Part shown: positions 5,774 through 25,258 of the stretch, in pieces
How the letters are laid out: each line of letters starts with the position of its first letter
How positions within the stretch are numbered: the first letter of the stretch is position 1
Assembly: GCA_019306365.1 (NCBI GenBank)
Contig: JAFDLS010000004.1
Coordinates: 1-32,372 of the forward strand
Length of the DNA: 32,372 nt
Direction: 5' to 3'
Source of the DNA: Deltaproteobacteria bacterium
Lineage (GTDB): Bacteria; Desulfobacterota; Desulfarculia; Adiutricales; JAFDHD01
Notes under the pieces: generated by a model
The model's input: only the letters and a program-made list of their open reading frames with translations
Told to the model about the DNA's origin: nothing
Databases searched by the model: none
Translations under genes and position numbers: made by a program

Positions 5774-5788
5774 TGGCCTGACTCTTGC
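5774..5788 (+). promoter_or_regulatory. Sigma-54 (-24/-12) promoter of glnB
   Basis: TGGC (5774-5777) and TTGC (5785-5788) are separated by exactly 7 bases, matching the TGGC-N7-TTGC core of RpoN promoters. Transcription would begin near 5800, about 60 bases before the glnB ATG. Sigma-54 control of glnB/glnA operons under nitrogen limitation is well established in proteobacteria. Confidence 0.72.
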
Positions 5789-5831: not shown

Positions 5832-6200
<369 letters not shown>

Positions 6201-6205
6201 TAAAA

Positions 6206-8800
6206 ATGGTTGATTTTATTGAGGAAAAAACAAAGCTTATCACGGCTCTTGATCAGGGCTTCTCAGGAGTTGATTTCTCTGCCGCCTACACCGCCTTATT
6301 AGATAGTTATTTGAAAGATCTATACCGGGAAGCCTTAAACGGAAAAGAGGCGCCCAAAGGGCTGGCTCTGGTAGCCCTGGGTGGTTATGGCCGGAGTGAG
6401 GTATCTCCTTATTCTGACGTGGATTTGCTTTTTCTCTATGGTTCTGGCCTGGGTGAAGAAAGGGTCCGCCCTCTGGTGGAGGCCGTTTTATATCCTCTGT
6501 GGGATCAAAAACTCGATGTGGGCCATGCCAGCCGCACGGTTGACGAGTGTCAGAGCATGGGTCGATCTGACTTCGCAACGTTGGTTTCCCTGATTGAGTC
6601 TCGTTTATTAATAGGAGATGAAGATCTTTTTTTAAATTTCCTAAGACAGTTACGCTACTGGCTAAGTTCAAAGACTCAGCGCAGGAGCTTCTTTACCAAC
6701 CTTAAAAATAATGTTGAGGCCAGGTACCGGAAATATGGACAGAGCCCTTATCTTCTGGAACCTGATGTCAAAAACGGTCAGGGGGGGCTGAGGGATATCC
6801 AGGCCATTTCCTGGGCTGGCCTGGGTATATATGGGATTTCAGGATTTGATGAGTTGGCTGAGGCAGGGCTTCTGCCCAAATATGGGGCGCTTGCGCTTAA
6901 AGAAGACCGGGATTTTATGGTTTGGGTTCGGGCTCAGCTTCACCGCCTCGCCGACAGTAAGAATGAAACGCTCACCCTTATGTATCAAGAAAATCTGGCC
7001 AACCGCTTTGGGTATGAGGACGAGGGTGATATTACGGCTGCGGAAGGTTTCATGCATGTCTATTATACCCATGTTTATTCGGTCAGTAATAATCTCGATT
7101 TTCTTTTAAGCCGGGTTGAAGAGGACCTTCGTCCTACTTCTGTAAAACGGATAACCCAGCATGCCCGCACAGTGGAAAAGGGCCTGTTGGTGCGTCGTGG
7201 GCTGGTGGAATTGGTTTCCTCGACGGACGTACGCCGCCGGTCGGTTTTGATGATGAGGGCTTTTGAAGTTGCCATGAGTGAAGGACTTCAGCTCAGTCAT
7301 CAGACTCTGGACGTTATTCGCTCTAACATTGATCTGATTGACGATAATTTTCGGCGAAACCCGGAAGCCGCCCAGTCTTTTTTCCGGGCCATCTCGGCCA
7401 TCCCGTCCAATACTCCTGCCAGGCCGCGTAATATCGAGGCCATGCAGGAAATAAATTTCCTGGCCGCTTATATCCCGGAACTGGCGCCTGTCAAAGCGCG
7501 GGCACAACATGACGCCTACCACCTTTACACGGTAGACGTGCACCTTGTCCTAACTCTGTGGGAGCTTAAAAAGATCGCATCCAAGCAGGGGGAGGAGGAT
7601 AGGGATGATTTTGAACTTTCGATTTTGGAACAGGTAAAAAAACCGGAGGTTTTATATTTAGCCGCGTTAGTTCATGACATCGGCAAAGGTCTTGGGCATG
7701 ATCACGCCCGCCGGGGAGCCGAACTGGTCCCCCAAATTGGTGAGCGTTTGGGGTTAAGTCCTGATGAAATAGAAGCTCTGGTCTTTCTGGTGGCTGAACA
7801 TCTATTTCTCATCGAAACGGCTACTCGCCGGGATTTGACCGAGGAAAAGCTGATTCTTACTTCCGCCCAGCGTGTAGGGGATATTGATCGGCTGAACATG
7901 CTTTATCTCCTTACAGTGGCTGACTCCAGGGCCACCGGCCCTACGGCTTGGAGCCAGTGGAAGGCTTCTTTGCTTCGTGATCTTTACACCAAGGTTTATC
8001 ACGTGCTAACCCGGAGCGATTTAGCTGGCAAGGAAGCGGCTAATCGAAGGGAGAAGCTGAAAATTGAGGTGAAAAAGATTTTGAAGAACAAGCTGGACCC
8101 GGAGCGGGTCGAGTTCGGACTTGAAAACGTATCAGCGCATTATCTTTCGGTGATGAACGCCAATCAGATCGCCCGTCATCTGCTTTTGGAGGATAGATTC
8201 GGCGACGGGGTCATGGTCTGGGAGGTCCGGGACACGAACAAGGGGTTTTATGAAGTTACCCTGGTGACCAAAGACCGGCCAGGCTTGCTGGCCAGCATGG
8301 CCGGAGTTTTCTCCCTCAACAGTATAAATATTTTAGGCGCTCAGGTTTTTACCAGGGCCAATGGAATCGCTATTGATATATTCCATGTTGATTCACCCCC
8401 AGACCCCATTTTTATTGAGGAGGCCTGGGCCAAGGTCAAAGAAGACGCGCGTAAGGTTCTGATCGGTGAAATGACCCCTGATTTTCGTTCATCACATCGG
8501 CGGCCGGTGTTTAAAGTTACTCAAAAGGTCCCGCATCGTCCATCCAGAGTTGAGGTGGATAATGAGGTGTCCGATTTCTATACCGTGATTGAGGTCTTTG
8601 CCCATGATCGTCTGGGCCTGCTTTACGATTTGACTCAAACGATTTTCAATCAGAACCTCACGATCCATATCGCCAGAATTTCCACCAAGGTTGATCAGGT
8701 TGTGGACGTCTTCTACGTCCGCGACTTTGACGGACAGAAACTGGATGAAAAGGATATTCAGGCTTTAAAAGAAGCTCTGGCATTAACTCTTGAAGAATAG
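6206..8800 (+). CDS. glnD: [Protein-PII] uridylyltransferase / uridylyl-removing enzyme
   Basis: This is an 864-residue bifunctional sensor of glutamine. The nucleotidyltransferase motif spans residues 59-73, with GGYGRSE followed by the metal-binding D71-V-D73. A helical GlnD_UR_UTase segment follows. An HD phosphohydrolase motif (LVHDIGKG, near residue 490) removes UMP. Two C-terminal ACT domains (about 680-735 and 790-850) bind glutamine. Length and domain order match family members. The start is 5 bases after the glnB stop, so the pair is translationally linked, and its substrate PII is encoded immediately upstream. All catalytic motifs appear intact. Confidence 0.95.
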
Positions 8801-8861: not shown

Positions 8862-10274
8862 ATGACACCCGAAAAAGTATTGGAGATGGCTAAGAAGAAA
8901 AAAGCCGTAATGGTTGATCTGAAATTTATGGACTTCCCCGGCATGTGGCAGCACTTCACCCTGCCAATCAAATCATTGGATGCAGCAGCCTTTGAAGACG
9001 GCTTTGGTTTTGATGGCTCAAGTATTCGAGGCTGGCAGCCCATTCACGCCTCGGACATGTTGGTCATCCCCGACCCGACAACGGCCCTGATAGACCCCTT
9101 CACCGAGGCCTCAACTCTGTCGCTGATCTGTAATATTGTGGATCCAATCACCAAGGAATCATATTCCCGGGATCCGCGATATATTGCCCAGAAGGCAGAA
9201 GCTTACATGAAATCAACCGGCCTGGCTGACACAGCCTGTTTTGGGGCGGAAGCTGAATTTTTCATCTTCGACGACGTTCGCTATGACAGCAATGAGCACA
9301 GCTCCTACTACTTTGTGGATTCGGAAGAAGGTTTCTGGAATACCGGCCGGGTAGAAAACCCGAACCTTGGTTATAAGCCGAGATATAAAGAAGGGTATTT
9401 CCCTGTTCCTCCCACAGACTCTCTTTATAATCTACGAAACGAGATGGCCCTGCAGCTCATGGAGTCTGGCATAGAGATCGAGGCTCAGCACCACGAGGTG
9501 GCCACGGCCGGCCAAAGTGAGATAGACATGATGTACTCCCCTCTGGTCGAAATGGGGGACAAGCTGATGCTTTTTAAATACATAGTAAAAAATGTCGCCC
9601 GGAAACATGGGAAAACGGTGACCTTTTTACCAAAACCGATTTATTCAGATAATGGTTCAGGCATGCACGTCCATCAGAGCCTGTGGAAAAAAGGCAATCC
9701 TTTGTTTGCCGGGGATGAGTACGCCGGTCTTTCCCAGATGGCTCTTTACTACATTGGCGGAATCCTGACTCACGCCAAGGCGCTATGCGCCTTCTGCGCG
9801 CCCACAACCAACTCCTACAAGAGGCTGGTCCCGGGTTTTGAAGCCCCGGTAAACATGGCCTACTCCAGCCGAAACCGTTCGGCCGCCATCAGGATTCCTT
9901 TGTATTCGCCAAGCCCGAAAGCCAAGAGGGTCGAAGTCAGGTTCCCTGATCCTTCCTGCAATGGCTACATGGCCTTTTCCGCCATGCTCATGGCTGGGTT
10001 GGACGGTATCCAGAACAAGATCCATCCGGGCGAACCACTGGATAAGGATATCTACGCACTCTCTCCGGAAGAGCTTGAAGACGTGCCTTCCGCGCCCGGT
10101 TCTTTGGAAGAGGCACTCAAGTCCCTGGAAGAGGATCATGAGTTTTTAATGAAGGGCGACGTCTTTACCCGTGACGTCATTGATATGTGGCTGGAATACA
10201 AGATGGAAAATGAGGTGAACGAACTGCGTCTCAGGCCTCATCCCTTTGAATTCAGCCTGTATTTTGATGTCTAA
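8862..10274 (+). CDS. glnA: Glutamine synthetase type I (GSI-beta, adenylylatable)
   Basis: This 470-residue enzyme makes glutamine from glutamate, ammonia and [14 protein letters not shown], the AEAEFFIFD metal site, [10 protein letters not shown] and the [13 protein letters not shown] loop are all present. Tyr398 in [11 protein letters not shown] corresponds to the E. coli adenylylation tyrosine, so this is the target of the GlnE encoded next. The frame runs open to 8790 inside glnD, but AAGGAG at 8850-8855 and family alignment place the start at 8862. It lies 61 bases after glnD and probably belongs to the glnB transcript. Confidence 0.96.
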
Positions 10275-10309: not shown

Positions 10310-10365
10310 ATACAAGATAAAGAATTACAGGGGGCGAAGCTGATAATAAGCGGAAGGCGGGATTG

Positions 10366-13278
10366 GTGGCTCAGATAGAAAAAAAAGGCCATGATCGCAG
10401 CGAGATCATACTCAGCCTGTTTCCTTCGGCTGAGCGTAAGATAATCACAGGCGATGAGCCCACGGCCAGGGCCCTTTGGGCGCTGGCCTCCTATTCCCCA
10501 GCCTTGACACAGGCGCTGGCCGTAAGGCCGGAAATTGCCCGCTGGCTTTTTTTGAACCGCTCTTTCCAGCGTCCGGCTTCTTCTCAAACAATGTCAGGGA
10601 AGCTCGCCGCCCAGGCAGCGGATGTTTCCAGCCTGAAGGAACTTCAAACCTGCTTGCGTTTTTTTAGGCTCAAAGAGTTAACCCGCCTGGCGATCCGTGA
10701 CTTAACCGGACGGGCTGATCTGGCCGAGGTAATAGAAACCTTAACTACCCTGGCTGAGGTTTGTTTGAGGATGGCCCTGCGTTTCGCGGTACGGTCGGCG
10801 GCGACTCGCTGGGAACTTTCTCCGGATGATCTGGGATTGGTACCGATAATACTCGGTATGGGGAAACTTGGTGCAAGGGAATTGAACTACAGTTCGGATG
10901 TGGATTTGATTTACCTGTACCAGCCAGATCACACCTCCTTTAGATCGCCTGATCCAGGAGTTGTGGCTGAATTTATTTTCACCACGGTGACAAAGGCCAT
11001 GTCCGAGGTAACCGAGGATGGTTTGGTTTTTCGGGTTGATCAGGACCTCCGTCCCGGCGGCAAGGACGGAGCACAGGCCCAGTCAATCGAAGCGGCCTCA
11101 AAACATTACCTGGCCCTGGGTCAGCCCTGGGAAAGAATGGCCTTGCTTAAAGCCCGGCCTGTTGCCGGTGATCTGACTGCCGGACAGGAGTTTCTTGACA
11201 CACTGGTTCCGTTCATTTTTCGCCGTTACCTGGATTACACGGCTCTGGAGGAGCTTAAAGCCCTCAAGGTGCGGTTTTCCGAAGAAAAAAGAATCAAGGC
11301 CCGGCGGGTGAATGACCATCGCCTGCATCGGTCTGATATAGATGTCAAGCTTGACGGCGGCGGTATTCGAGAGGTTGAGTTTTTTGCCCAGGCCCTGACC
11401 ATTACTTTCGGCGGCCGCCTGCCGCACCTTCGCCAGGCCGGAACGCTCGATGCCCTTGCGGCCCTGGCCGATGAAGGAATTATCAGCCCGGAAGACGCAA
11501 GGGAGCTATCTGAAGCTTACACTTTTTTGCGTACCGTCGAACATCGACTCCAACTTCGGGAACTGACCCAGACCCAAACCCTGCCCAGAAGTGAAATAGC
11601 CCAGGATAACCTGGCCCGTTCCATGCACTTTGAAACGGAAGGGAAAAAGGCCTTTTTTGACGAACTGAATGGCCATATGGACCTTGTCAGTGCCAGATTC
11701 AGTCTTTTACTGGCTGACCCGGATGAGGCGGAAACGAGAACGAGCGAGATTCATCAGGAAGACGCGGAGGCAAAGGTCCGCCTGCTTTTGGAGACTCTGG
11801 ATAATGAGACCTCAAGCCTGAAGCTCCTGCAGGAACTTGGCTTTAAACGCCAGGAAGCGGCCCTGGCCGCTTGCCGGACCATCCAACGGGAACGCTATCT
11901 TCCCGATCGCCTGGCGCGGTATCGAGAGCAGTTGGAAAGACTTATGCCTCCCCTGATCGCTCAGGCCGCGGCGGCCCCGGATCCCGACCGCGCTCTGGCT
12001 CACCTTGAGCGATTCTTAACCCGGATCGGCCCCATGGGCGGCTTTCTTCTTTTGCTTGAGGAAAATCCCAAACTGATTTACCTCCTGGCCACGCTTTTTG
12101 GCACCAGCGAATACCTTTCCGGGATCCTCATAAATCATCCCGGGATTCTGGACAGCCTCATAGATCGCCGCAGCGCGCGTTTGGTGAAAAATCGAACCGC
12201 TCTGGCTGAGGATCTCTCAACCGCCCTGCTTGGCGAGGAAGACCCTGAATCGCAGCTCTCACTTATACGCCGTTTCAAAAATGACGAGATTCTTAGACTG
12301 GGGCTTTATGACATCCTGGGCGAATTGAGTCTTGACCAGGTGCAAGACCAGTTGACCTCCCTGGCTGAAATAACCATGGATTATACCCTGGCTCTCGCCG
12401 CCGAACTGGTTCGGGGAGGTCAGGGCCTGCCGCTGGCTGTAATGGGTTTGGGTAAGCTGGGCGGGCGCGAACTTAGTTACCGCTCTGATCTGGACCTGAT
12501 TTTCGCGCTGGGCGGTTATCCAAACGGCGGGAAAGCAGATATCGAGGTTGCTGTTCGCGTGGTGCAGCGCTTTATCTCTTTTCTCTCGCTGCCTCTGCCA
12601 GAGGGACCGGGTTATGAAATCGACTCGCGGCTTCGGCCTTCAGGAACATATGGGCCCCTGGTGGTCACGCCGGTTTCCCTGGACCGTTATCATCAAACCT
12701 CACAGCTCTGGGAACGGCAGGCTTTACTCAAGATGCGGCAAGTCCTGGGTCCGGTGAATCTGGGGGGGCGGATCAAGAGTCTGGCAAACAGAGCTGTTTT
12801 TAGCGGCCCGTTTCCTTCTGACGCGGCTGAACGGATCCATCAGCTTCGGCTTCGAATGACCACGGAGCGAGGTAAACTCAGGCCCGGGACGATCAGTTTC
12901 AAATTTTCGCCGGGCGCCCTGGTTGATGTCGAGTTTATAGCCCAGTATCTTCAGATGATCCATGGTCGTAAATATAAAGGCTTCATCCGATCGGTCTCCA
13001 CTAAAAAGGCTTTGTTGGCCCTGAGTAACAAAAGGCTCGGGCCAAGAGGGTTGGGAGACGTGGCCGAGGTTTATGAATTGATGTCCCGAATGGTAAACCG
13101 GTTGGGGTTGATCCACGCCAGGGGAGGGGACGAGGCAGCCTACACTGAACAGGAGATCGACGCCCTTAACCTGCCCGGAATACCCGAACAGCCAATGTCC
13201 GCGCTTAAGAAGGGCATGGACCTAGTTAAAGGTATTTACGCCGAAGTTTTTAATCAGGATATTGAACATGCAGGTTAA
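10366..13278 (+). CDS. glnE: Bifunctional glutamine synthetase adenylyltransferase / deadenylylase
   Basis: This is a protein of about 970 residues, close to the usual GlnE length. It has two nucleotidyltransferase halves. The N-terminal half carries GMGKLGARELNYSSDVD with the catalytic pair D179/D181. The C-terminal half carries GLGKLGGRELSYRSDLD with D709/D711 (numbering from the TTG at 10363). One half adenylylates and the other deadenylylates the GlnA tyrosine under PII and glutamine control. GGAAGG at 10352-10357 fits a GTG start at 10366 better than the TTG at 10363. The 3' end overlaps the next gene, which is a degenerate copy of one GlnE half. Confidence 0.94.
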   Translation: MAQIEKKGHDRSEIILSLFPSAERKIITGDEPTARALWALASYSPALTQALAVRPEIARWLFLNRSFQRPASSQTMSGKLAAQAADVSSLKELQTCLRFFRLKELTRLAIRDLTGRADLAEVIETLTTLAEVCLRMALRFAVRSAATRWELSPDDLGLVPIILGMGKLGARELNYSSDVDLIYLYQPDHTSFRSPDPGVVAEFIFTTVTKAMSEVTEDGLVFRVDQDLRPGGKDGAQAQSIEAASKHYLALGQPWERMALLKARPVAGDLTAGQEFLDTLVPFIFRRYLDYTALEELKALKVRFSEEKRIKARRVNDHRLHRSDIDVKLDGGGIREVEFFAQALTITFGGRLPHLRQAGTLDALAALADEGIISPEDARELSEAYTFLRTVEHRLQLRELTQTQTLPRSEIAQDNLARSMHFETEGKKAFFDELNGHMDLVSARFSLLLADPDEAETRTSEIHQEDAEAKVRLLLETLDNETSSLKLLQELGFKRQEAALAACRTIQRERYLPDRLARYREQLERLMPPLIAQAAAAPDPDRALAHLERFLTRIGPMGGFLLLLEENPKLIYLLATLFGTSEYLSGILINHPGILDSLIDRRSARLVKNRTALAEDLSTALLGEEDPESQLSLIRRFKNDEILRLGLYDILGELSLDQVQDQLTSLAEITMDYTLALAAELVRGGQGLPLAVMGLGKLGGRELSYRSDLDLIFALGGYPNGGKADIEVAVRVVQRFISFLSLPLPEGPGYEIDSRLRPSGTYGPLVVTPVSLDRYHQTSQLWERQALLKMRQVLGPVNLGGRIKSLANRAVFSGPFPSDAAERIHQLRLRMTTERGKLRPGTISFKFSPGALVDVEFIAQYLQMIHGRKYKGFIRSVSTKKALLALSNKRLGPRGLGDVAEVYELMSRMVNRLGLIHARGGDEAAYTEQEIDALNLPGIPEQPMSALKKGMDLVKGIYAEVFNQDIEHAG

Positions 13279-14578
13279 TCCGTCAGATACGGGCACTAAA
13301 CCCATTTTGAGTGATAGACAGCTTTTTGAAACCAGTCCATTTCTGGCTGAAATGGTGGACGGAGGAACTTGGAAGGAGAACAAAGAACAGGGTAATGTAA
13401 CTGATGGTCTTTCTTCCTCATTTTCTTTTAAAGATTTTCGCAAGCAGATTCGCCAGGTTGCTGGCGATCCGGAGGCGGCTCTGCCTTTGCTGAGAAAATT
13501 ACGAATTCAAACCCTGCTCGAAGTGGCTCGCGCCGACTTGGAAAACCGCCTGAAACCTCACCAGATTCAGGCTGAGCTAAAACAGCTGGGTGATAAGCTT
13601 CTATACGGAGCCTGGACTGTGGCCGAAACAGTACTTCGCCGAAAGTATGTACATCCGTTGATCCTGGAGCGCCGTAATATAATATCTCCCGTGGCCATAT
13701 GTACCCTGAGCCGGCTCGGATCTGCCGACCCGTTTTACACCACTGCGCCGGCCCCTATTTTCGTCCACTCCCGGGCCGCTGAGTTTTCGCCGGCCCTTAA
13801 GGAAAAAGACTTGATTCAGGCCCGGCGTTCACAGAAGGAGTGGCTCCCGGCCCGCGATTACTTCCTGCGTTTGACCAGCCGTACGATCTCATACCTGTGG
13901 GCTTCTGACGCTCAGGGGAATAGGTTCAACCCCATGGGGGAAGATCACCTTCTCGATAGATCTGTCCTTCTGCCCGGTCCGCTGGTAATTCTTTTTTCAG
14001 CCTTTGAAGATCACTTCTTGAAGAACCAGCCCCCCGCGCAGGCCCTTTCCCTTCTCAGACTTCGTTTTTCCGTCGGTCAGACGCTTTTGGGTCAGGCTGT
14101 GGAGGCGGCTTCCCGAGAGATATTATTAAGAGCCGCTTCCTTGCTTGGCGGCCGGCTCAAGAACGCTCTTAATGCGTGGTTCCTGGAAAGGGCCAAGGCT
14201 GAGGGCCTTTCAATGGTTTCAGGCGGTTTACTTGATATCGAGAAGGTCATACGTTTTCTTCAGTTCAAGTATGCGCCTGATGATATTACACTTTTAAGTT
14301 CTTCACCCCAAAAGGCCCTTAACCTTATGGTCCGGAAGGGTTTAGTGGACCCTGAGCATAGAAAGATTTTGTCACGATCTTACACCTGGCAGTGGTTCAT
14401 CATTAACCGCCTGGCGCTTTTTGACCGCCGGAACACACTGACCCCACAAGCCTTGCGCTCAAACCTGCTCGATCGCGAAATCGGTCTTGAAGGAGCCTCA
14501 GACAAGACCTTGAGCCTGATGAAATCAGCCCGCTCCATATGCAGGGACCTGCTTTGGGAAGGGACAGAAGGTGTCTGA
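13268..14578 (+). CDS. GlnE-like pseudo-adenylyltransferase (half-length, DxD lost)
   Basis: This 436-residue protein is a diverged relative of one GlnE half. Its AICTLSRLGS...YTTAPAPIFV aligns with IILGMGKLGA...YSSDVDLIYL of the adjacent GlnE, placing Ala160 and Ala162 where the two catalytic aspartates should be. Further matches are GPLVILFSAFED with GPLVVTPVSLDR, and SGGLLDIEKVIRFLQ with PGALVDVEFIAQYLQ. The LRKLRIQTLLEVARADL helix near the start resembles LRFFRLKELTRLAIRDL of GlnE. An intact 436-codon frame and an ATG overlapping glnE by 11 bases (AGGA 8 bases before it) argue for a translated protein rather than a decayed pseudogene. It is probably catalytically dead and may regulate GlnE, GS or PII; that role is inference. 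Confidence 0.82.
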   Translation: MQVNPSDTGTKPILSDRQLFETSPFLAEMVDGGTWKENKEQGNVTDGLSSSFSFKDFRKQIRQVAGDPEAALPLLRKLRIQTLLEVARADLENRLKPHQIQAELKQLGDKLLYGAWTVAETVLRRKYVHPLILERRNIISPVAICTLSRLGSADPFYTTAPAPIFVHSRAAEFSPALKEKDLIQARRSQKEWLPARDYFLRLTSRTISYLWASDAQGNRFNPMGEDHLLDRSVLLPGPLVILFSAFEDHFLKNQPPAQALSLLRLRFSVGQTLLGQAVEAASREILLRAASLLGGRLKNALNAWFLERAKAEGLSMVSGGLLDIEKVIRFLQFKYAPDDITLLSSSPQKALNLMVRKGLVDPEHRKILSRSYTWQWFIINRLALFDRRNTLTPQALRSNLLDREIGLEGASDKTLSLMKSARSICRDLLWEGTEGV

Positions 14579-14807: not shown

Positions 14808-14836
14808 TTGACTCAGTGAACTGAGATGAATATATA
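14808..14836 (+). promoter_or_regulatory. Sigma-70 promoter of glnA2 with palindrome in the spacer
   Basis: TTGACT (14808-14813), a 17-base spacer and TATATA (14831-14836) make a good housekeeping promoter. It starts just downstream of repeat copy A and about 26 bases before the glnA2 ATG. A perfect palindrome, CTCAGT-GA-ACTGAG (14812-14825), overlaps the -35 and fills most of the spacer, an ideal repressor position. Confidence 0.6.
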
Positions 14837-14861
14837 TAGGGTCATCCATTTGGAGGAAAAA

Positions 14862-16190
14862 ATGAACAGTCTTGCCGAAGAGGATATTCTTAAAAAAATC
14901 AGTGATTTAGAGGTAAGTTTCGTTCAGTTCTGGTTTACTGACGTTCAAGGCAGACTCAAGAGCCTGGCTGTGGACGCCACAGACCTGGATGAAGCGCTCA
15001 AAGACGGCATAGGCTTTGACGGCTCGTCCATTGAAGGTTTTGCCCGAATCGAAGAGAGTGACATGATCGCCAAGCCGGACCTGTCTACCTTTCAAATCCT
15101 GCCCTGGCGTCCTGCCGATAGACCCGTGGCCAGAATGTTTTGTGATATCTATGAGCCTGAAGGCACACCTTATCCAGGTGACCCCCGCCATACCTTGAAG
15201 GACCTGATCGATCGGCTTCTGGGTGATACTTATAAATACATGGTCGGTCCTGAGCTCGAATACTACTATTTCAAGGACAACCGGACACCGGAACCAGTGG
15301 ACCAGGGAGGGTTCTTTGATACCAGGCCGCTGGACCTCTGCACCGATCTGAGACGGGCGAGTATCTTTGCCTTGCAATCCATGGGCATTAAGGTCAACTA
15401 CTCGCACCACGAGGTTTCGCCGGGGCAGAACGAGATACATCTTCGTTACGACGAAGTCCTGCGCATGGCCGACAACACCATGACCTACCGGATCGTTCTC
15501 AAAGAGGTGGCACACCAAAACGGGGTATACGCATCTTTCATGCCCAAGCCAGTTCAGGATTTGAATGGTTCGGGCATGCATGTTCATCAATCCCTGTTTA
15601 AGGACGGCCGAAACGCTTTTTATGACCCTGATGATCCGAACCGGCTTTCAAAACTGGCCAAGCACTTCATGGGCGGTTTGCTCTATCACGCGCGCGAAAT
15701 CACGGCTATTACTAATCAGTGGATCAATTCATATAAGCGGCTGGTTCCTGGTTACGGGGCGCCATCCTACATAGCCTGGGCCAAGCGCAGCCGTTCCGCG
15801 TTGATGCGTGTTCCGGTTTACAAGCCTGGCAAGGAGAACTCAACACGGTTCGAATACCGCGCCCCGGATCCGGCCTGTAACCCGTATCTTGCCTTTGCCG
15901 TAATGTTGGCGGCGGGGATGGAGGGTGTCAAGTACGAATATCCCCTGCTTGATCCCGTTGACGTGGATATTTCCTCCTTGAGCAGACAGGATCAGGAAAA
16001 AATGGGGATCTCCTTTTTACCAGGCAACCTTTATGAGGCCTTGCAGGAGTTGGAGAAGGGCGAACTGGTCAAGAGCGCCATCGGCGAGCATATTTTCAAC
16101 AAGTTCATAGAAAATAAGAAGATCGAGTGGGAGAGGTACCGCAGCCAGGTCACCCAGTTCGAGATCGCACAATACTTCCCTACTTTATAG
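14862..16190 (+). CDS. glnA: Glutamine synthetase type I (GSI-alpha-like)
   Basis: This 442-residue second glutamine synthetase is shorter than GlnA1. It has GIGFDGSSIEGFARIEESDM; Arg62 in this stretch matches the feedback-inhibition arginine of Bacillus GSI-alpha. [12 protein letters not shown] and [13 protein letters not shown] are intact. The C-terminal region contains no tyrosine in an adenylylation-type context, so GlnE is not expected to control it. GGAGG 9 bases before the ATG at 14862 fixes the start, although the frame is open from 14826. It has its own promoter. Two GS classes side by side suggest control by adenylylation for one and by feedback or transcription for the other. Confidence 0.93.
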   Translation: MNSLAEEDILKKISDLEVSFVQFWFTDVQGRLKSLAVDATDLDEALKDGIGFDGSSIEGFARIEESDMIAKPDLSTFQILPWRPADRPVARMFCDIYEPEGTPYPGDPRHTLKDLIDRLLGDTYKYMVGPELEYYYFKDNRTPEPVDQGGFFDTRPLDLCTDLRRASIFALQSMGIKVNYSHHEVSPGQNEIHLRYDEVLRMADNTMTYRIVLKEVAHQNGVYASFMPKPVQDLNGSGMHVHQSLFKDGRNAFYDPDDPNRLSKLAKHFMGGLLYHAREITAITNQWINSYKRLVPGYGAPSYIAWAKRSRSALMRVPVYKPGKENSTRFEYRAPDPACNPYLAFAVMLAAGMEGVKYEYPLLDPVDVDISSLSRQDQEKMGISFLPGNLYEALQELEKGELVKSAIGEHIFNKFIENKKIEWERYRSQVTQFEIAQYFPTL

Positions 16191-16460: not shown

Positions 16461-17468
16461 CTAGATGTAGCTGAGGATACGTGTATCCAGCTCCTTGTAT
16501 GAGAACAGCGTCGAGTATTCGGTCAGCGCGGCCAGAGCCCGATTTTGGATCCGTATACCATACTCTTCAAGGATTGCGGTCGGATTCAGCCCACCAATCA
16601 CGACGGCTCCCAGACGTCCTTCGCTGACGGGAATCTCCAGCAGGGGCTGACCAGGCCAGCCCACAGACATGAAGCCGTTTAAACCGACTTCTTCAAGCTT
16701 TCCGGCCAGGCTGAGTACGCTGTCCCGGCTGCCCGCGGGCACCTCGCGAAAGCTGGCGCCGATCCTGCCGTTGCCGGTTGAGGTCGCCCCGATATAATCG
16801 GTCATACCCCCGCGAATAAAAACCTCGAGAGGATCCAGAGTTGTGCCTTCATAATGGATGAGTTCCACAAACCGGGTTGGTTTTTTATCCTGAACCTCCA
16901 AAAGACCGCCGAACCGTGAATGAGTCGGGATGCCATGCGCCAGAAGCACTCCGTTTAGAGTGACCGAACACACGGTTCCGATCCCCACCGATTCCTCCCG
17001 TACTATCACGTCACCAATTCTTTCACCCGGGCCGAACAGCGTCAGAAGCTGTCCCATGGCATAACCGGAACTATAAACCCGCTTCATCAAAGGCACTGCT
17101 TGTTCAAGTTGATCATGCTCAATGATGCTCGCGTTTATCACCACGGTACCACGCTTTTCCACGAGATTGAAATCCATGTTGTAGGTCAGCTGATCGATCC
17201 TGGCCGCCAGGTAGCCAACTTTTTCATAGGCCCTCGCGACGGATAATTCCTTCAAGCCCCGTTCGGTAATCCTGTGGCCGCGTTTGCCGAGGATTTCAGT
17301 CATCCCCTCGCGATCCAACTGCTGGAGGTAAAGACGGACCGTTCGCTCACTCACCTCATGGCCCATGGCCAGAAGCTGCTGATTAATTATTGAGCTGCTT
17401 AAGGGTTTGTTGGAGCCCTGCAGAATCCTCAAAACGGCTAGACGTTTTTTCTCTCTTTTTTCCCGCAT
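16461..17468 (-). CDS. nrpR: NrpR-family nitrogen repressor (winged helix plus one NrpR/DUF128 domain)
   Basis: A winged-helix domain occupies about residues 1-80 (KKRLAVLRILQ to KRGHRITERGL). It is followed by an NrpR domain with signatures such as VGIGTVCSVTLNGVLLAHGIPT, SRFGGLLEV and GAVVIGGLNPTAILEE. In methanogens NrpR represses nitrogen-assimilation genes and is released by 2-oxoglutarate. The frame is open to an ATG at 17582, but ATG 17468 is preferred: the DNA-binding domain begins there, and an almost perfect promoter ends 7 bases upstream, leaving the mRNA nearly leaderless. Only one NrpR domain is present (335 residues). It faces away from the FMN glutamate synthase gene, a likely target. 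If the promoter call is wrong, 17510 or 17582 could be the start. Confidence 0.87.
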   Translation of the reverse strand: MREKREKKRLAVLRILQGSNKPLSSSIINQQLLAMGHEVSERTVRLYLQQLDREGMTEILGKRGHRITERGLKELSVARAYEKVGYLAARIDQLTYNMDFNLVEKRGTVVINASIIEHDQLEQAVPLMKRVYSSGYAMGQLLTLFGPGERIGDVIVREESVGIGTVCSVTLNGVLLAHGIPTHSRFGGLLEVQDKKPTRFVELIHYEGTTLDPLEVFIRGGMTDYIGATSTGNGRIGASFREVPAGSRDSVLSLAGKLEEVGLNGFMSVGWPGQPLLEIPVSEGRLGAVVIGGLNPTAILEEYGIRIQNRALAALTEYSTLFSYKELDTRILSYI

Positions 17469-17475
17469 AAATTGA

Positions 17476-17504
17476 ACTATATCGGCAAATATGCCTTTTG
17501 TCAA
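17476..17504 (-). promoter_or_regulatory. nrpR promoter, near-consensus
   Basis: On the minus strand TTGACA (17504-17499), a 17-base spacer and TATAGT (17481-17476) match 11 of 12 consensus positions. Initiation 7-8 bases downstream falls on or beside the A of the ATG at 17468, so a leaderless mRNA is possible. The spacer holds the dyad at 17484-17495. Confidence 0.65.
17484..17495. promoter_or_regulatory. Operator-like dyad inside the nrpR promoter
   Basis: GGCAAATATGCC is a 12-base dyad (GGCA/TGCC arms) between the -35 and -10 of nrpR. A near-identical element, GGTAAATTTGCC, lies 31 bases away at 17515, three helical turns. The arrangement suggests autorepression by NrpR binding two sites on one DNA face. 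Confidence 0.55.
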
Positions 17505-17514
17505 ACGCATAACT

Positions 17515-17526
17515 GGTAAATTTGCC
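17515..17526. promoter_or_regulatory. Second operator-like dyad upstream of nrpR -35
   Basis: GGTAAATTTGCC sits 10 bases upstream of the nrpR -35. The identical 12-mer occurs again at 17668-17679 in the intergenic region, which is unlikely by chance within 170 bases. Confidence 0.5.
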
Positions 17527-17667
17527 TGTTTTTTAATGCTGTTGCCTGTCTGGATTAAGTTCTCGAAATTGACTAACGTCACGGTTTATAAAGGTTTTAG
17601 GTCAGTTTAGCCTTTTTCTGAATAGGAAAAAATGCCGACTCATAAAAGCCTATATTAAAAACAAAAG

Positions 17668-17928: not shown

Positions 17929-19542
17929 ATGAACCTAAGCAGACCCAATAGTAATGAAGCCGTGCAAACAGCCAACAGATCACGATTTGTCGCACCGCAA
18001 TCGGGAATCTGCAGCCGTTGTATAGATGGATGTAAGGGCAACTGTGATCTTTTCAAGGCCACCTTTCGCGGACGCGAACTGCTTTATCCCGGACCTTATG
18101 GGGAAGTAACCGCCGGGGCGGACAAGGATTATCCCGTTGATTACTCACACCTCAATATCATGGGATACGCTCTTGGAGCTGAAGGAGTGGCCGCGGATCC
18201 CGACCATGCCACCTTCCCAGCCGTTGATACCAAAACAGTATTTGGGACGGACAACCCTGTCAAGATGAAGATCCCAATCTTTACCGGAGCTTTGGGCAGC
18301 ACGGAAATCGCGCGCAAGAACTGGGAGCATTTCGCTATTGGAGCGGCCATTACAGGTATCAGTTTGGTCTGTGGTGAGAATGTCTGTGGAATCGATCCGA
18401 AGCTGGAGTTGGACGGTAACGGCAAAATCAAGGAAGCGCCGGACATGCGCCGCCGGGTGGAAGCCTACCGCCGCTACCATAATGGTTATGGCGATATTCT
18501 AGTTCAGATGAACGTTGAGGATACCAGGCTGGGCGTGGCTGAGTATGCCATCGAAAAACTGGACGTGGAAACGATCGAGTTAAAGTGGGGTCAAGGCGCT
18601 AAATGTATCGGCGGCGAGATCAAGGTGGATTCCCTGGAACGGGCCATTGAATTGAAAAAACGCGGATATATAGTCACGCCCGATCCTGAGATGCCGTCTC
18701 ACCAGGCCGCCTTCAAGGCGGGAGCCATAAAACAGTTCGAAAGACATTCACGCCTGGGTTTCGTTGATGAAGAGGGTTTTGCCAGGGAAGTCGAGCGGCT
18801 TCGCGCTTTGGGCGCCAAACGCGTTACATTAAAGACCGGCGCATATCCCATGCGCGAACTGGCTATGGCTATCAAATGGTCTTCCAACGCCAAGATTGAC
18901 CTGTTGACTATCGACGGCGCGCCCGGTGGAACCGGCATGAGTCCCTGGCGGATGATGTCTGAATGGGGTATCCCATCCATCTATTTGCACTCCATGGCTT
19001 ACGAGCTGTGCGCGCGTTTGGAAAAACAGGGCGCCCGGGTGCCTGATATCGCATTTGCCGGTGGGTTTTCCGCAGAGGATCATGTCTTCAAGGCTCTTGC
19101 CCTGGGAGCCCCTTACTGCAAGGCCGTTTGTATGGGCCGCGCCTTGATGATCCCGGGCATGGTCGGTAAGAATATCGGCAACTGGCTAAACGGCGAGGCC
19201 GGTGGCCTGCCCAAGACCGTTTCCAAGTTTGGAGCTACTAAGGAAGAAATCTTCTTCTGTTATGAGGACCTGAAAGAGGTGTACGGCTCTGATGTGGAGA
19301 ACTTCCCGCTGGGCGCGATAGGTGTATTTAGTGTGGGTGAAAAGATTAGAATCGGCTTACAGCAGCTTATGGCCGGCGCGCGTAAATGGAAAGTGGAATA
19401 TATGTCTCGAAATGACCTGGCTGCTTTGACCGAAGAATGCGCCAAGATTACCGGCATCTCCTACATTATGGATGCTTATCGAGAGGAAGCGCTTGAAATA
19501 ATCGACGCCGAACCCCGCAGCAACTCTATCGCAGCCGGTTAA
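17929..19542 (+). CDS. Standalone FMN-binding glutamate synthase family protein
   Basis: This 537-residue protein has the FMN/synthase barrel of GltB but no amidotransferase domain. An N-terminal Cys cluster, C28-x2-C31-x3-C35-x3-C39, could hold an iron-sulfur centre. Barrel motifs include KWGQGAKCIGGE (about 220-231), LTIDGAPGGTGMSP (about 326-339) and a glycine-rich FMN-phosphate segment, DIAFAGGFSAEDHV. GGAGG 7 bases before the ATG supports the start. Whether it makes glutamate from 2-oxoglutarate using free ammonia or a separate glutaminase is unknown. It diverges from nrpR, carries a palindrome at its promoter and ends at a strong terminator, so it is probably a single-gene transcript under NrpR control. 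Confidence 0.88.
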   Translation: MNLSRPNSNEAVQTANRSRFVAPQSGICSRCIDGCKGNCDLFKATFRGRELLYPGPYGEVTAGADKDYPVDYSHLNIMGYALGAEGVAADPDHATFPAVDTKTVFGTDNPVKMKIPIFTGALGSTEIARKNWEHFAIGAAITGISLVCGENVCGIDPKLELDGNGKIKEAPDMRRRVEAYRRYHNGYGDILVQMNVEDTRLGVAEYAIEKLDVETIELKWGQGAKCIGGEIKVDSLERAIELKKRGYIVTPDPEMPSHQAAFKAGAIKQFERHSRLGFVDEEGFAREVERLRALGAKRVTLKTGAYPMRELAMAIKWSSNAKIDLLTIDGAPGGTGMSPWRMMSEWGIPSIYLHSMAYELCARLEKQGARVPDIAFAGGFSAEDHVFKALALGAPYCKAVCMGRALMIPGMVGKNIGNWLNGEAGGLPKTVSKFGATKEEIFFCYEDLKEVYGSDVENFPLGAIGVFSVGEKIRIGLQQLMAGARKWKVEYMSRNDLAALTEECAKITGISYIMDAYREEALEIIDAEPRSNSIAAG

Positions 19543-19573
19543 CAAACCAACCTGAAACACAATACAAAACCTG

Positions 19574-19607
19574 AAAAGGGGGGTTAATAATCGACCCCCT
19601 TTTTTTT
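19574..19607 (+). terminator. Intrinsic terminator of the FMN glutamate synthase gene
   Basis: GGGGGT (19579-19584) pairs with ACCCCC (19594-19599) across a 9-base loop, with AAAA before and an 8-T run directly after. It lies 32 bases past the stop codon. Confidence 0.88.
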
Positions 19608-19609
19608 AT

Positions 19610-19799
19610 TATAGTAATTGCCAGAATCACGTTCCGTTTGATTACTGAGGTAAATCACGGCTCTAACAGCGGCTGCCATGATATAACAAATGGCAATTAC
19701 GTGATGTCTTGGCGTTTGTCGTAATGTGGTTTGTGGGAAAAGCCGAAACTAAATCTTCTCCTGCCCCAAGGTCAAACGGAACATATTTATGACAAACGC
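19610..19799 (+). repeat. ~190-bp interspersed repeat family, copy C (best preserved)
   Basis: It starts directly after the terminator T-run. Three perfect inverted arm pairs are interlocked: GTAATTGCC (19614-19622) with GGCAATTAC (19692-19700), GTTCCGTTTGA (19631-19641) with TCAAACGGAAC (19772-19782), and GCGTTTGTC (19712-19720) with GACAAACGC (19791-19799). Confidence 0.87.
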
Positions 19800-19869
19800 G
19801 CAGGCAATAAGATTTATCCAGAGGATTAAGAACGTGGCTTTTCGGGAGACCCGCTTCATTTTTTAAAGC

Positions 19870-19881
19870 GACAATTTTGTC
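19870..19881. promoter_or_regulatory. GACAA-N2-TTGTC palindrome (candidate enhancer)
   Basis: GACAATTTTGTC has the same arms as GACAAATTTGTC at 5685-5696 and lies 133 bases upstream of the second -24/-12-like promoter. This is within the usual range for a sigma-54 activator site. Confidence 0.45.
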
Positions 19882-20013
19882 AGGTTTAATTTTCAATGAG
19901 CGCGGAAACCCGTGATATGGAAAAATGAGTTAAAGGAAGGTATGTTTTAATAACGGCTATAACTGTTTTATTTCATAGGCTTCTTTTATTTCAGCGGGTT
20001 AATGTATTTTCCT

Positions 20014-20028
20014 TGGCACGAAACTTGT
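20014..20028 (+). promoter_or_regulatory. Sigma-54-like promoter of the mvhD-metVF-GOGAT operon
   Basis: TGGCACG-AAAC-TTGT matches the RpoN consensus TGGCACG-N4-TTGC at every position except the final C. The spacing is exact. The start site would fall near 20040, about 294 bases before the mvhD ATG, with the repeat at 20095-20268 inside the leader. Confidence 0.55.
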
Positions 20029-20094
20029 AAAATCCACTCTTGAAGAAACAAGCTGCCGTTTATTTAGAAACCGACCACACGGCAAAGATATGGC

Positions 20095-20268
20095 TAGAAG
20101 CTACCTCAAAATTAGTGTTTTGGTCTAAATCGCGAAGAAAGAAAATTTAACCCGCAGGAATATGTTAAATATTTCGAGGACTTAAATTTTCGTATGACAT
20201 ATGCCGCTACAGCGTGAGTGAAGCGGTGCTCATGAGTTAGGATAAAAAAACTTTTGAGATGGCTTCTA
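20095..20268 (-). repeat. MITE-like repeat with TA ends, copy 2 (inverted relative to copy 1)
   Basis: The 174-base element reads TAGAAGCTACCTCAAAA at the left and TTTTGAGATGGCTTCTA at the right. Its reverse complement aligns end to end with 5203-5378, with scattered substitutions and short indels. It lies in the leader of the metVF operon. Confidence 0.78.
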
Positions 20269-20333
20269 ATAATTAATCAAGTTAAAACAGACTTTTGAAA
20301 CAAAAATAGGCCGAACACAGGCTGGTAATTGTT

Positions 20334-20744
20334 ATGTCTAAAGATAAAATAAGAATCGTAGTTCGGGGCTGTCACAACCAGGCCCCATTTTTAACACTTG
20401 CTAAAAAAAACGCCCCTGATTTACCTCCAGGGATCGAGTTGGCCCTTTTACCCTGCAGTGGCAAGATCGAATCTCACCAGATTTTAAAATTCTTTGAGCA
20501 AGGAGTGGACGGGGCGCTTATCATAGCCTGCCCCGAGGGGGCCTGCCGTTTTGTGGAAGGTAATTTAAGGGCCGTCAAACGCGTAGCTTACGCGCAAGAA
20601 TGGATGGAAGAATTGGATCTGGAGCCGGATCGTGTCAAATTTCATATGCTTGATTCCCAGGCTTCTGAAGATATAAATGAGATAATAAATACATTTTACT
20701 CAGCCATGTGTGAGCTTGGTCCAACCGATCTCACCGGCCTATAA
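20334..20744 (+). CDS. mvhD: MvhD/FlpD-family iron-sulfur electron-transfer subunit
   Basis: This 136-residue protein matches the MvhD/FlpD family ([2Fe-2S] subunit of hydrogenase/heterodisulfide reductase complexes). The cysteine signatures are RGCHN, LPCSGK and ACPEGACRF-x2-GN, the last close to the family's GC-x4-C-x4-GN pattern. In acetogens and sulfate reducers this subunit links HdrA-type flavoproteins to MetVF or hydrogenases. It is the first gene of a tightly spaced operon and precedes metV by 17 bases. No hdrA is present in the window, so its flavin partner must be encoded elsewhere or replaced by the Fe-S proteins further down the operon. The ribosome binding site is weak. Confidence 0.87.
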   Translation: MSKDKIRIVVRGCHNQAPFLTLAKKNAPDLPPGIELALLPCSGKIESHQILKFFEQGVDGALIIACPEGACRFVEGNLRAVKRVAYAQEWMEELDLEPDRVKFHMLDSQASEDINEIINTFYSAMCELGPTDLTGL

Positions 20745-20761
20745 GATAAATGAGGTAGGAA

Positions 20762-21430
20762 ATGATTGTCGCAGAAAAAAAACCGCTTGCCGAAATAAAG
20801 GCTTCCTTGGGTTCAGCCAGGCGGATTCTTTTGATCGGTTGTAACACCTGTGTGGCCGAGTGTGCCGCCGGCGGTCCTAAAGAAACGGCCCTGATGGCTT
20901 CAGCCCTCAGGATCGCCTATGACAAAGCTGGTGAAAAGATTGAGGTGCGTGAGGCCTCCCTGGATCGCCAATGCGTTCATGAATTCCTGGCCGAGGTGGG
21001 AGAAGAGGTCAATTGGACGGAAGCGGTTCTTTCTCTGGCTTGCGGAGCGGGTGTGCAGGCCCTGGCCCGTTTTTACCCACAGTCGGTAATTATTCCAGCT
21101 TTAAACACTCAGTTCATCGGCACCACCGTGGAAGCCGGGGTCTGGGCTGAAGACTGTTCAGGCTGCGGAAACTGCAAATTGGCGTATTTCGCCGCCGTGT
21201 GCCCTCTTACCCGCTGCGCAAAGAAACTGCTCAACGGTCCCTGCGGAGGTTCTAATAATGGAAAATGCGAGGTTTCACCGGATCTTGATTGTGCCTGGCA
21301 GATGATCTACGACCGCCTGACGGCGCTCAACCAGCTTGATCGTCTCAAGGAGTTTGTGCCGCCCAATGACTGGTCCACCTCTCATTCCGGCCGGCCGCGG
21401 GTCATTATCAGGGAGGATCGTCGCGTATGA
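20762..21430 (+). CDS. metV: MetV, Cys-rich partner of methylenetetrahydrofolate reductase
   Basis: This 222-residue protein of the MTHFR C-terminal family partners MetF in acetogens and other Wood-Ljungdahl bacteria. An N-terminal IGCNTCVAECAAGG Cys segment is followed by a C-terminal Cys-rich region, CSGCGNCKLAYFAAVCP to LNGPCGGSNNGKCE, consistent with iron-sulfur or zinc sites. AGGTAGGAA directly precedes the ATG. The TGA overlaps the metF ATG by 4 bases (ATGA), so the two are translationally coupled, as expected for complex partners. Confidence 0.92.
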   Translation: MIVAEKKPLAEIKASLGSARRILLIGCNTCVAECAAGGPKETALMASALRIAYDKAGEKIEVREASLDRQCVHEFLAEVGEEVNWTEAVLSLACGAGVQALARFYPQSVIIPALNTQFIGTTVEAGVWAEDCSGCGNCKLAYFAAVCPLTRCAKKLLNGPCGGSNNGKCEVSPDLDCAWQMIYDRLTALNQLDRLKEFVPPNDWSTSHSGRPRVIIREDRRV

Positions 21431-22365
21431 ACTTAGAAAGCAGGTTAGCACGGGTTTTAGCGGCGGGCCATTTTGCTGTAACCGCGGAGTGCGGCCCCCC
21501 GCAGGGAGCTGATTCTCAGCCGATACAGGAAAAAGGCAAGTTGATTAAAGACGTGGTTGACGCGGTCAACGTGACTGATAATCAAACCGCCGTGGTGCGC
21601 CTCTCTTCATTGGCCTCTGCCGTTCTTTTAAAGGAGATGGGCATTGAGCCGGTCCTGCAAATAGTAACCCGCGACCGCAATCGGATCGCTTTACAGTCTG
21701 ATCTTCTTGGAGCTTCGGCCCTTGGGGTTCGAAACGTGCTCTGCCTCACCGGTGATCATCAGAGTTTTGGCAACCAGAAGGCCGCTCAAGGGGTTTATGA
21801 CCTGGATTCAATCCAGCTTGTCTACGCGGCCAGAATAATGAGAGACGAGGGGCGTTTGCTGGATGGAACCAGGCTAAAATCGTCCCCAAAATTATTTATT
21901 GGCGCGGCAGCCAACCCGTTTGCCGATCCATTAGGGTTAAGGGTAACGCGCCTAGCCAAGAAGATTTATGCCGGGGCCAATTTTATCCAGACCCAGTGCA
22001 TATACGATACGGCCAGGTTCGAGGTTTGGCTCAACGGGGCCCGCCAGGAAGGCTTGACTGAAAAAGTTTATATCCTGGGAGGTGTCACACCACTCAAATC
22101 TGTTCGTATGGCAGAGTATATGAAGGCAAACGTGGCTGGGATTGAGGTTCCGGACGAGGCTATAAAGAGAATCAAGGGAGTTCCGAACAAGGATCAAGGC
22201 GCTGAAGGGATTAAGATGGCCGTGGAGACGATTGAATGGCTGAAAGGCCTTGACGGTGTGGCCGGTGTGCATGTGATGGCTATTGGCTGGGAGGAAAAAG
22301 TTCCGGAGATACTGGAAGCCGCAGGTCTCTCTCCCCGCGCGAAACTGGAAAAGGCAAGTCAATAA
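21427..22365 (+). CDS. metF: 5,10-methylenetetrahydrofolate reductase
   Basis: This 312-residue FAD-dependent TIM barrel of the usual length interconverts methylene- and methyl-tetrahydrofolate in the methyl branch of the Wood-Ljungdahl pathway. Family motifs include TAECGPPQGAD near the N-terminus, NVTDNQTA, VLCLTGDHQS and NFIQTQCIYD. It overlaps metV by 4 bases and is followed after 1 base by a glutamate-synthase-like gene. Because MetV and MvhD are encoded together, electrons probably come from ferredoxin or an Hdr-type complex rather than NADH alone; this is inferred from acetogen complexes. Confidence 0.94.
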   Translation: MNLESRLARVLAAGHFAVTAECGPPQGADSQPIQEKGKLIKDVVDAVNVTDNQTAVVRLSSLASAVLLKEMGIEPVLQIVTRDRNRIALQSDLLGASALGVRNVLCLTGDHQSFGNQKAAQGVYDLDSIQLVYAARIMRDEGRLLDGTRLKSSPKLFIGAAANPFADPLGLRVTRLAKKIYAGANFIQTQCIYDTARFEVWLNGARQEGLTEKVYILGGVTPLKSVRMAEYMKANVAGIEVPDEAIKRIKGVPNKDQGAEGIKMAVETIEWLKGLDGVAGVHVMAIGWEEKVPEILEAAGLSPRAKLEKASQ

Positions 22366-22366
22366 G

Positions 22367-23779
22367 ATGCCCGGGAAGTATCATATTGAAGCCAAACTCT
22401 CACCAAACCGCCACCGGGTTCCTGGGCGTGTGTCTTTGATCGATTGGGAGGAGGGATGCCTCAAATGCACTGTCTGTGTTAAGCAGAAGTGCGTTTACGG
22501 CGTCTATAAGGATCGTCAGATTGATCCGGTGTCACTGGCCGATACGGCCGATATGCTGTGCAGGCACTGCTACCAGTGCGTTCAGGGCTGTCCCAACAGG
22601 CTCATATCCAAGTCCATCAATCCTGAATACGAGATGATGGGTGATGAATATTGGACACCGGCCATTCTAACTCAGCTTTACAACCAGGCCGAGACAGGTA
22701 AAATACCGATCTCCGGGGCTGGCTATACCGGCCCCTTTTCCGGTCCTGGGTTTGATTCCATGTGGACTGATATGTCCGAGATCGTTCGGCCGACACGAGA
22801 CGGAATTCATGGCCGTGAATACATAAGCACGTCAACCGACCTGGGCGCTAAACCCTCGTACCTTTCCTTCCTTTCGGACGGCAGCCTGGACATGATGCCC
22901 GCTTCATTCGTTGAAATTCCAGCGCCTTTTATCCTGACTATGCCTGAAGACCGCTTGGTCAGCCCTGGTCTGAGCGAGGCTTTGGCCGAAGCGGCTGCCG
23001 ATTTGGGGACCTTGTTCCTTAACTCAGCCGAAAACATAGAAGAAGGTTCAGGCCGGGCAAAGCGGCATCTTATGCCTCGGCTGAATAAGGGTTCACTCTG
23101 GCCTGACCTTAAGGCTTACGAGCGGTTTAAAGTTGTTGAGATTGATTACTGGCCCGGTTTAGAAAGATGGCTGAATGTTTTTAGAAAGGTCAATCGTCAC
23201 ACGGTCATCTCGGTGCGTTTGCCTTTCTCGCCAGGTTTTACCGGCCTTCTCGGTCCTCTGGTGGAAGCAGGGACAGGGGTGCTGCATCTAACGGCGGACA
23301 ATCATGGCCGTGGTTTGGGTTTTGAATCCAACTCACAGGACGCTCCTGTATTGATTGACCTCATCCGTGAGGCGCACTTTCACTTAGTGGATTTGAATAT
23401 ACGTGATGAGGTGACGATTTTAATAAGCGGTGGAATCGCTCTGGCCGAACATGTGGCCAAGTCCATTGCCTGCGGGGCCGACGCCGTGGCCTTGGATCTC
23501 GCCTTATGGGCGGCTTTGGAATGCCGCGTCTGTCGTGACTGTCTGGTGCAAAAAGCCTGTCCGGTTGAAATAGAGTCTTCACCCGTCAATTGGGCCAGGC
23601 AAAGGTTTGTGAATCTGGCCGGGGCCTGGCACAATCAGCTTCTCGAGGTTCTTGGTGCGATGGGCCTGAGGGAGGTTCGTCGATTAAGGGGCGAAGTTGG
23701 CCGGGTGATGTTTTTTGATCGGCTTGAAGAGGAATCCTTTGGCCCCATTTTCGGGCGGCGAAAGGATGGAAAAAAGTGA
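22367..23779 (+). CDS. Ferredoxin-domain glutamate-synthase-like protein with degenerate FMN site
   Basis: This 470-residue protein has two Cys quartets near the N-terminus: C31, C34, C37, C42 and C65, C68, C71, C75, each suitable for a [4Fe-4S] cluster. A DMSEIVRPTRDGIHGREY segment and a barrel related to the next gene follow. The FMN-binding stretch that reads LDGSYGGTGAAP in its neighbour is LTADNHGRGLGF here, and the KYAQGAKPGLGG segment has no counterpart, so flavin catalysis is doubtful. CRVCRDCLVQKACPVEI keeps a cluster-like cysteine set. The start is 1 base after metF, and the end overlaps the next gene by 4 bases. It is probably an electron-transfer or structural subunit of the following synthase, or of MetVF. 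Confidence 0.82.
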   Translation: MPGKYHIEAKLSPNRHRVPGRVSLIDWEEGCLKCTVCVKQKCVYGVYKDRQIDPVSLADTADMLCRHCYQCVQGCPNRLISKSINPEYEMMGDEYWTPAILTQLYNQAETGKIPISGAGYTGPFSGPGFDSMWTDMSEIVRPTRDGIHGREYISTSTDLGAKPSYLSFLSDGSLDMMPASFVEIPAPFILTMPEDRLVSPGLSEALAEAAADLGTLFLNSAENIEEGSGRAKRHLMPRLNKGSLWPDLKAYERFKVVEIDYWPGLERWLNVFRKVNRHTVISVRLPFSPGFTGLLGPLVEAGTGVLHLTADNHGRGLGFESNSQDAPVLIDLIREAHFHLVDLNIRDEVTILISGGIALAEHVAKSIACGADAVALDLALWAALECRVCRDCLVQKACPVEIESSPVNWARQRFVNLAGAWHNQLLEVLGAMGLREVRRLRGEVGRVMFFDRLEEESFGPIFGRRKDGKK

Positions 23780-25257: not shown

Positions 25258-25258
25258 A

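Follow-up and report, generated by a model that had tools for sequence, protein, structure and literature searches.

The adenylylation cascade of glutamine synthetase (GS), one of the founding examples of reversible covalent regulation, is commonly shown as complete with GlnB, GlnD, GlnE and GlnA. Non-covalent regulation of GS is already familiar from the cyanobacterial inactivating factors IF7 and IF17, which are small, unrelated proteins without the GlnE fold. Regulatory pseudoenzymes, summarised for pseudokinases (PMC12409994), keep the fold, lose the catalytic residues and are conserved; the role expected of them is that of an allosteric partner or scaffold. The gene described here, pseudo-glnE (13268..14578), matches that pattern. 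It lies directly behind glnE in a stretch of 32,372 nucleotides (the window) from a deltaproteobacterium, contig JAFDLS010000004.1 of assembly GCA_019306365.1. Window features are on the forward strand unless otherwise given. The product is, with high confidence, a maintained pseudoenzyme. Pseudoenzymes are a known kind; a GlnE-derived, glnE-coupled case was not found in the literature searched, which lay mostly outside subscription journals.

Identity, fold and active site of pseudo-GlnE

The frame is open across 436 codons. The 436-aa product is a half-length homologue of the C-terminal, adenylylation (AT) domain of GlnE and is catalytically dead as judged from its sequence; the identification draws on the open reading frame (ORF), Pfam, the Protein Data Bank (PDB), Foldseek and three orthologues. 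It scores 28.2 bits against Pfam GlnE PF03710 (cut-off 24). A sequence-only search gives a single PDB match (E=8.5e-6), to the adenylylation domain of E. coli GlnE, 3K7D, and a profile of the four orthologues matches 3K7D with E=5e-18. Because a profile of the gene reaches up to ~100 bits on C-terminal and ~27 on N-terminal halves of other GlnE proteins, pseudo-GlnE is assigned to the AT half, which provides its best relatives and to which the homology spans ~330 residues. The N-terminal, deadenylylating (AR) half (PDB 1V4A) belongs to the same fold family (Foldseek probability 1.0) but has the lower sequence score and a DxD motif that pseudo-GlnE is without. Against NCBIfam PRK11072 the score is 38 bits (cut-off 487). 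Pseudo-GlnE is one catalytic half and stands alone, without the AR half, the central regulatory domain or the two-half layout of ~950 aa. Landmarks retained from GlnE are R149-L150-G151, GPLV (237-240) and, in the helical domain, GGLLDIE (319-325; 14222..14242). The preliminary description, made from the window alone, had called the gene an intact half-length GlnE paralogue of 436 codons with these landmarks; every one was located, and the relationship is now refined to the AT half.

The AlphaFold2 model has a mean predicted local distance difference test score (pLDDT) of 73 and a predicted template modelling score of 0.77. Its only strong PDB matches are GlnE domains, 3K7D at a template modelling score (TM) of 0.67 and 1V4A at TM 0.64 (Foldseek, probability 1.0); the next match is DrrA. 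As a control, a model of the resident AT half built on the same six sequences gave TM 0.75 to 3K7D. Resident AT sequences were included in the alignment used for the pseudo-GlnE model, and the sequence-only 3K7D match is therefore the independent evidence for the fold. The model is weak around residues 150-200 and 213-236, with pLDDT <50 at 213-236. As modelled, the enzyme fold is retained; the structural comparison proposed in the preliminary description gave GlnE domains, and no unrelated fold, as strong matches.

In alignments with 3K7D, E. coli YSSDLDLIF stands opposite YTTAPAPIF, so that A160 and A162 take the place of both catalytic Asp (A160-P161-A162 codons, 13745..13753). The AT comparison set consisted of 35 sequences: 29 taken at GlnE loci throughout the phylum, four resident, and those of genomes G041 and G058. 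The three catalytic Asp, two in DxD and one in D.RLRP.G, are present without exception in these AT halves (35/35) and gone in 4/4 pseudo-GlnE. The DxD positions are also D/D in 4/4 AR halves; in the four pseudo-GlnE they read A/A, A/A, G/V and G/A. The position of the third Asp is M or L. Its region reads FNPMGED (220-226; 13925..13945) and falls within the low-pLDDT segment 213-236. S-R-L-G-S (148-152; 13709..13723) stands in place of the nucleotidyltransferase signature G-K-L-G-G: GxGK has become SxSR, with S and R in 4/4, whereas the second G is present in 35/35 and the K in 33/35 AT halves. The W-E of WERQ is lost, save one E. The replacement of DxD by AxA noted in the preliminary description is thus accompanied by loss of the third Asp and of GxGK, and no replacement acidic pair, which that description had named as counter-evidence, is present in the aligned active-site columns. 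In the nucleotidyltransferase fold two metals are bound by three conserved acidic residues; RelA/SpoT synthetases are active although one of these is missing (PMC11646218). From this known chemistry, pseudo-GlnE would be unable to transfer nucleotides by the usual mechanism.

The most conserved part of pseudo-GlnE (residues ~157-206) covers the former active site. A hyperconserved stretch at residues 157-200 (13736..13867), YTTxPxPxFxHSRAAEFxPALxEKDxxxARRxxKEWxPAR, is new with respect to the AT half of GlnE. Invariant positions make up 30/44 there and 120/392 elsewhere (Fisher p=2.5e-6, segment picked post hoc). The top 40-residue window (start 167) holds 28 invariant positions, equalled in 3/5000 shuffles. 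The loop that carries the stretch is short in the resident AT domain and of similar length in some other GlnE proteins, which points to an old loop fixed in sequence, with no clear insertion. Pseudo-GlnE is a clear case of conservation shifting onto a dead active site.

Coupling to glnE, selection and distribution

Pseudo-glnE and glnE share an operon and overlap by 11 bases (13268..13278), the pseudo-glnE ATG at 13268 preceding the glnE stop at 13276-13278. glnE is directly 5' of pseudo-glnE and overlaps it in the source genome (G000), G003 and G005. In G001 each of the two genes lies at a contig end, and these contig ends bear opposite ends of one insertion sequence (L016:9010-9120 and L013:1-112), which apparently entered where glnE meets pseudo-glnE. 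The element is flanked by TA and has a 16-bp inverted repeat, ATTAGTGCCTGTCCGG, of which the genome carries nine exact copies. Joined with one TA, an inferred empty site, the flanks give a single glnE-pseudo-glnE frame of 1407 aa, which suggests that the G001 lineage once had a GlnE-pseudo-GlnE fusion.

The orthologues are G001:C132 (67% identical), G005:C199 (~52%, JAHJTB010000251) and G003:C284 (46%, JAGVGV010000315). All three come from the order of the source genome and are without DxD; the frame is open in all four genomes. Between G000 and G001 the ratio of non-synonymous to synonymous change (dN/dS) is 0.16 for pseudo-glnE; the resident AT has 0.09, AR 0.15-0.20, glnA1 0.03 and nrpR 0.07-0.08. 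These values are rough because dS is >1 for this pair, and deeper pairs are less reliable. Third-position change in pseudo-glnE between the two genomes is 0.51 and second-position change 0.19. The gene is clearly under purifying selection, with dN/dS similar to that of GlnE's own domains. Its apparent maintenance, argued in the preliminary description from the intact frame and the glnE overlap, extends to relatives with open frames, no frameshifts and no relaxed selection, DxD being lost in 4/4 and glnE adjoining in three.

GlnE (PF03710) occurs in 4/41 genomes of the source genome's order, and pseudo-GlnE in exactly those four. The sister family f2 is without GlnE and full GlnD, and most of its GS matches are frames of ~740 aa, a size like that of type III; the co-occurrence therefore points to the whole cascade and not to GlnE alone. 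Neither the 63 genomes from the class nor the 395 from the phylum gave a further copy, only ordinary GlnE at <= ~104 bits; extra PF03710 matches in G353, G374, G391 and G410 appear to be fragments or weak hits. Scans of GTDB contigs with the single sequence and with the alignment, at pattern-limited sensitivity, found relatives only in G005 and G003, and none were found on viral contigs.

A tree of 43 domains places the four pseudo-GlnE in a single clade (100/100) with a long stem (2.78), among the AT halves and apart from the AR halves; long branches leave the exact placement unsure. Origin from an AR half is ruled out by profile scores and tree. A recent copy of the 3' half of resident glnE is rejected, as the approximately unbiased (AU) test rejects grouping pseudo-GlnE with the four resident AT domains alone (p=0.0098); with the G058 AT added to that group there is no rejection (AU p=0.18). 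The split is accordingly older than the radiation of resident glnE in the order, unless the gene was acquired from a different lineage. Of the paralogy described earlier, membership of the glnE family stands; derivation from the resident gene does not, subject to the same long branches. Both the pseudo-GlnE tree and the resident AT tree pair G000 with G001, separately from G003 and G005. Loss of DxD and of the third Asp is proposed to have occurred in the common ancestor of the four.

Proposed role and alternatives

The preferred reading, held at about even odds, is that pseudo-GlnE is a non-catalytic regulatory partner of GlnE, a pseudo-adenylyltransferase. Overlapping translation would make it next to GlnE. 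It would bind GlnE through the retained GlnE fold and the new conserved surface over the dead active site (~157-206), and possibly also GS or PII handled by GlnE. Once bound, it would set the balance of adenylylating and deadenylylating action of GlnE toward GlnA1. Binding to GlnE, the direction of the effect and the roles of PII and GS are what we infer. Fold and family, catalytic loss in 4/4, purifying selection, the movement of conservation onto the former active site, the overlap with glnE and the joined G001 frame favour this role, as do the occurrence in the same four genomes as GlnE, the pairing shared with the resident AT tree and the presence of GlnD and of Tyr targets on GlnA1 and GlnB. 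Held rather more tentatively is the wider proposal of a dedicated pseudo-adenylyltransferase subunit that forms a new layer of the GlnB-GlnD-GlnE-GlnA bicyclic cascade. Over its former active site this subunit would have a new surface for sensing or binding, and in one lineage it would apparently have been joined to GlnE in the past, as a third nucleotidyltransferase domain that is dead. The GS cascade would gain one component from a conserved, dead half-GlnE coupled to glnE, which would also be a natural tool for separating GlnE docking from GlnE chemistry.

Several points weigh against a partnership with GlnE. By co-occurrence, adenylylatable GS I or GlnD would fit as the partner just as GlnE does. 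Genomes G041 and G058, of the same class, have GlnE without pseudo-glnE beside it. The independent data are few, being four draft metagenome-assembled genomes from two families. The G001 fusion depends on joining two contigs whose adjacency is inferred from their ends, and the dN/dS values are rough, as stated.

A decoy or shield for GS is unlikely, though it is the best of the alternatives: pseudo-GlnE would dock on GlnA1 without modifying it, compete with GlnE and keep GS active or protected. The protein derives from a GS-recognising domain, retains the C-terminal helical GlnE domain with the G..xDxE motif and co-occurs with a Tyr-bearing GS I; but WE of WERQ and D.RLRP.G are lost, and the overlap and the inferred G001 fusion suggest amounts tied to GlnE, poor for competing over an abundant dodecamer. 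Coupled translation and the inferred fusion thus make action within a complex with GlnE likelier than free competition for GS. A decoy action does not fit the second GS of the window. That GS, GlnA2 (14826..16190; TIGR00653, 508.8 bits), is a type I enzyme that reads VDVDISSLS where the adenylylated Tyr would be, and its gene adjoins the unit without being counted in it. G001 keeps pseudo-glnE and has no second GS, and none was found beside pseudo-glnE in G001, G003 or G005. Protection of the second GS, suggested in the preliminary description, is rejected on these grounds.

Less probable again is a sink or adaptor for PII, in which pseudo-GlnE would bind GlnB or GlnB-UMP and either titrate PII or present it to GlnE. 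The cluster begins with glnB (Tyr51) and glnD, and E. coli GlnE is bound by PII and PII-UMP (PMC12409994); against this, pseudo-GlnE is an AT half only, without the central regulatory domain that lies between AR and AT, and no PII-specific signature was seen in it. A re-purposed enzyme or ligand sensor is improbable to the same degree. The stretch from YTT to KEWxPAR would then be a new nucleotide or metabolite site, or serve a catalysis other than the usual metal-dependent nucleotidyl transfer; H167, S168, R169, E172, E179, K180, D181, R186, R187, K190, E191 and R196 are invariant and clustered at the old active site, and the pseudokinase SelO has another activity (PMC12409994), but the stretch holds no recognised motif, and the model has the weak parts given above (150-200 and 213-236). 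A decaying duplicate without function, to which the lost catalytic residues and the long stem branch might point, is already largely refuted by four intact frames, dN/dS of 0.16, conservation concentrated in a new place and a retained location, and is very improbable.

Genes of the cluster and adjoining region

The cluster of glnB, glnD, glnA1 and glnE around pseudo-glnE is complete; all five genes are in one direction and are followed by glnA2. glnB (5862..6200; Pfam P-II) encodes PII and keeps the uridylylatable Tyr51. glnD (6206..8800) encodes the PII uridylyltransferase (TIGR01693, 663.9 bits, above cut-off). glnA1 (8862..10274) encodes a type I GS with the target Tyr, codon at 10053 (TIGR00653, 670.6 bits). 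glnE (10363..13278) is full-length (NCBIfam PRK11072, 567.8 bits over a cut-off of 487), and its sites are intact: AR DxD at 10894-10914, AT DxD at 12484-12504 and the third Asp at 12622. Scans for promoters, terminators and sigma-54 sites stayed at chance level, and Rfam gave no match. A sigma-54-like site, TGGCCTGACTCTTGC, lies at 5774-5788, 73 bases 5' of glnB; the pattern occurs at chance frequency in the window.

In G005 the glnD beside glnE (C199:3605-6159) is in two frames (141 + 836 aa), possibly frameshifted near the N-terminus, and a second, intact glnD is on C73. The GlnE of G041 (L017:5847-9656) has 1269 aa, ~300 longer than usual. In G126 (C15:13254-14018) there is one in-frame TAG within the GlnE domain, which could be pyrrolysine use, a sequencing error or decay.

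A regulator with NrpR domains NRD1/2 and a winged helix is encoded beside the gln cluster (16461-17582, reverse strand) and also occurs in G001. NrpR is a type of nitrogen repressor best known from archaea. Split glutamate synthase genes, with the flavin mononucleotide (FMN), GXGXG and amidotransferase parts in separate ORFs, occupy 17929-27895 and are interspersed with FlpD, MetV-like and MetF-like genes.

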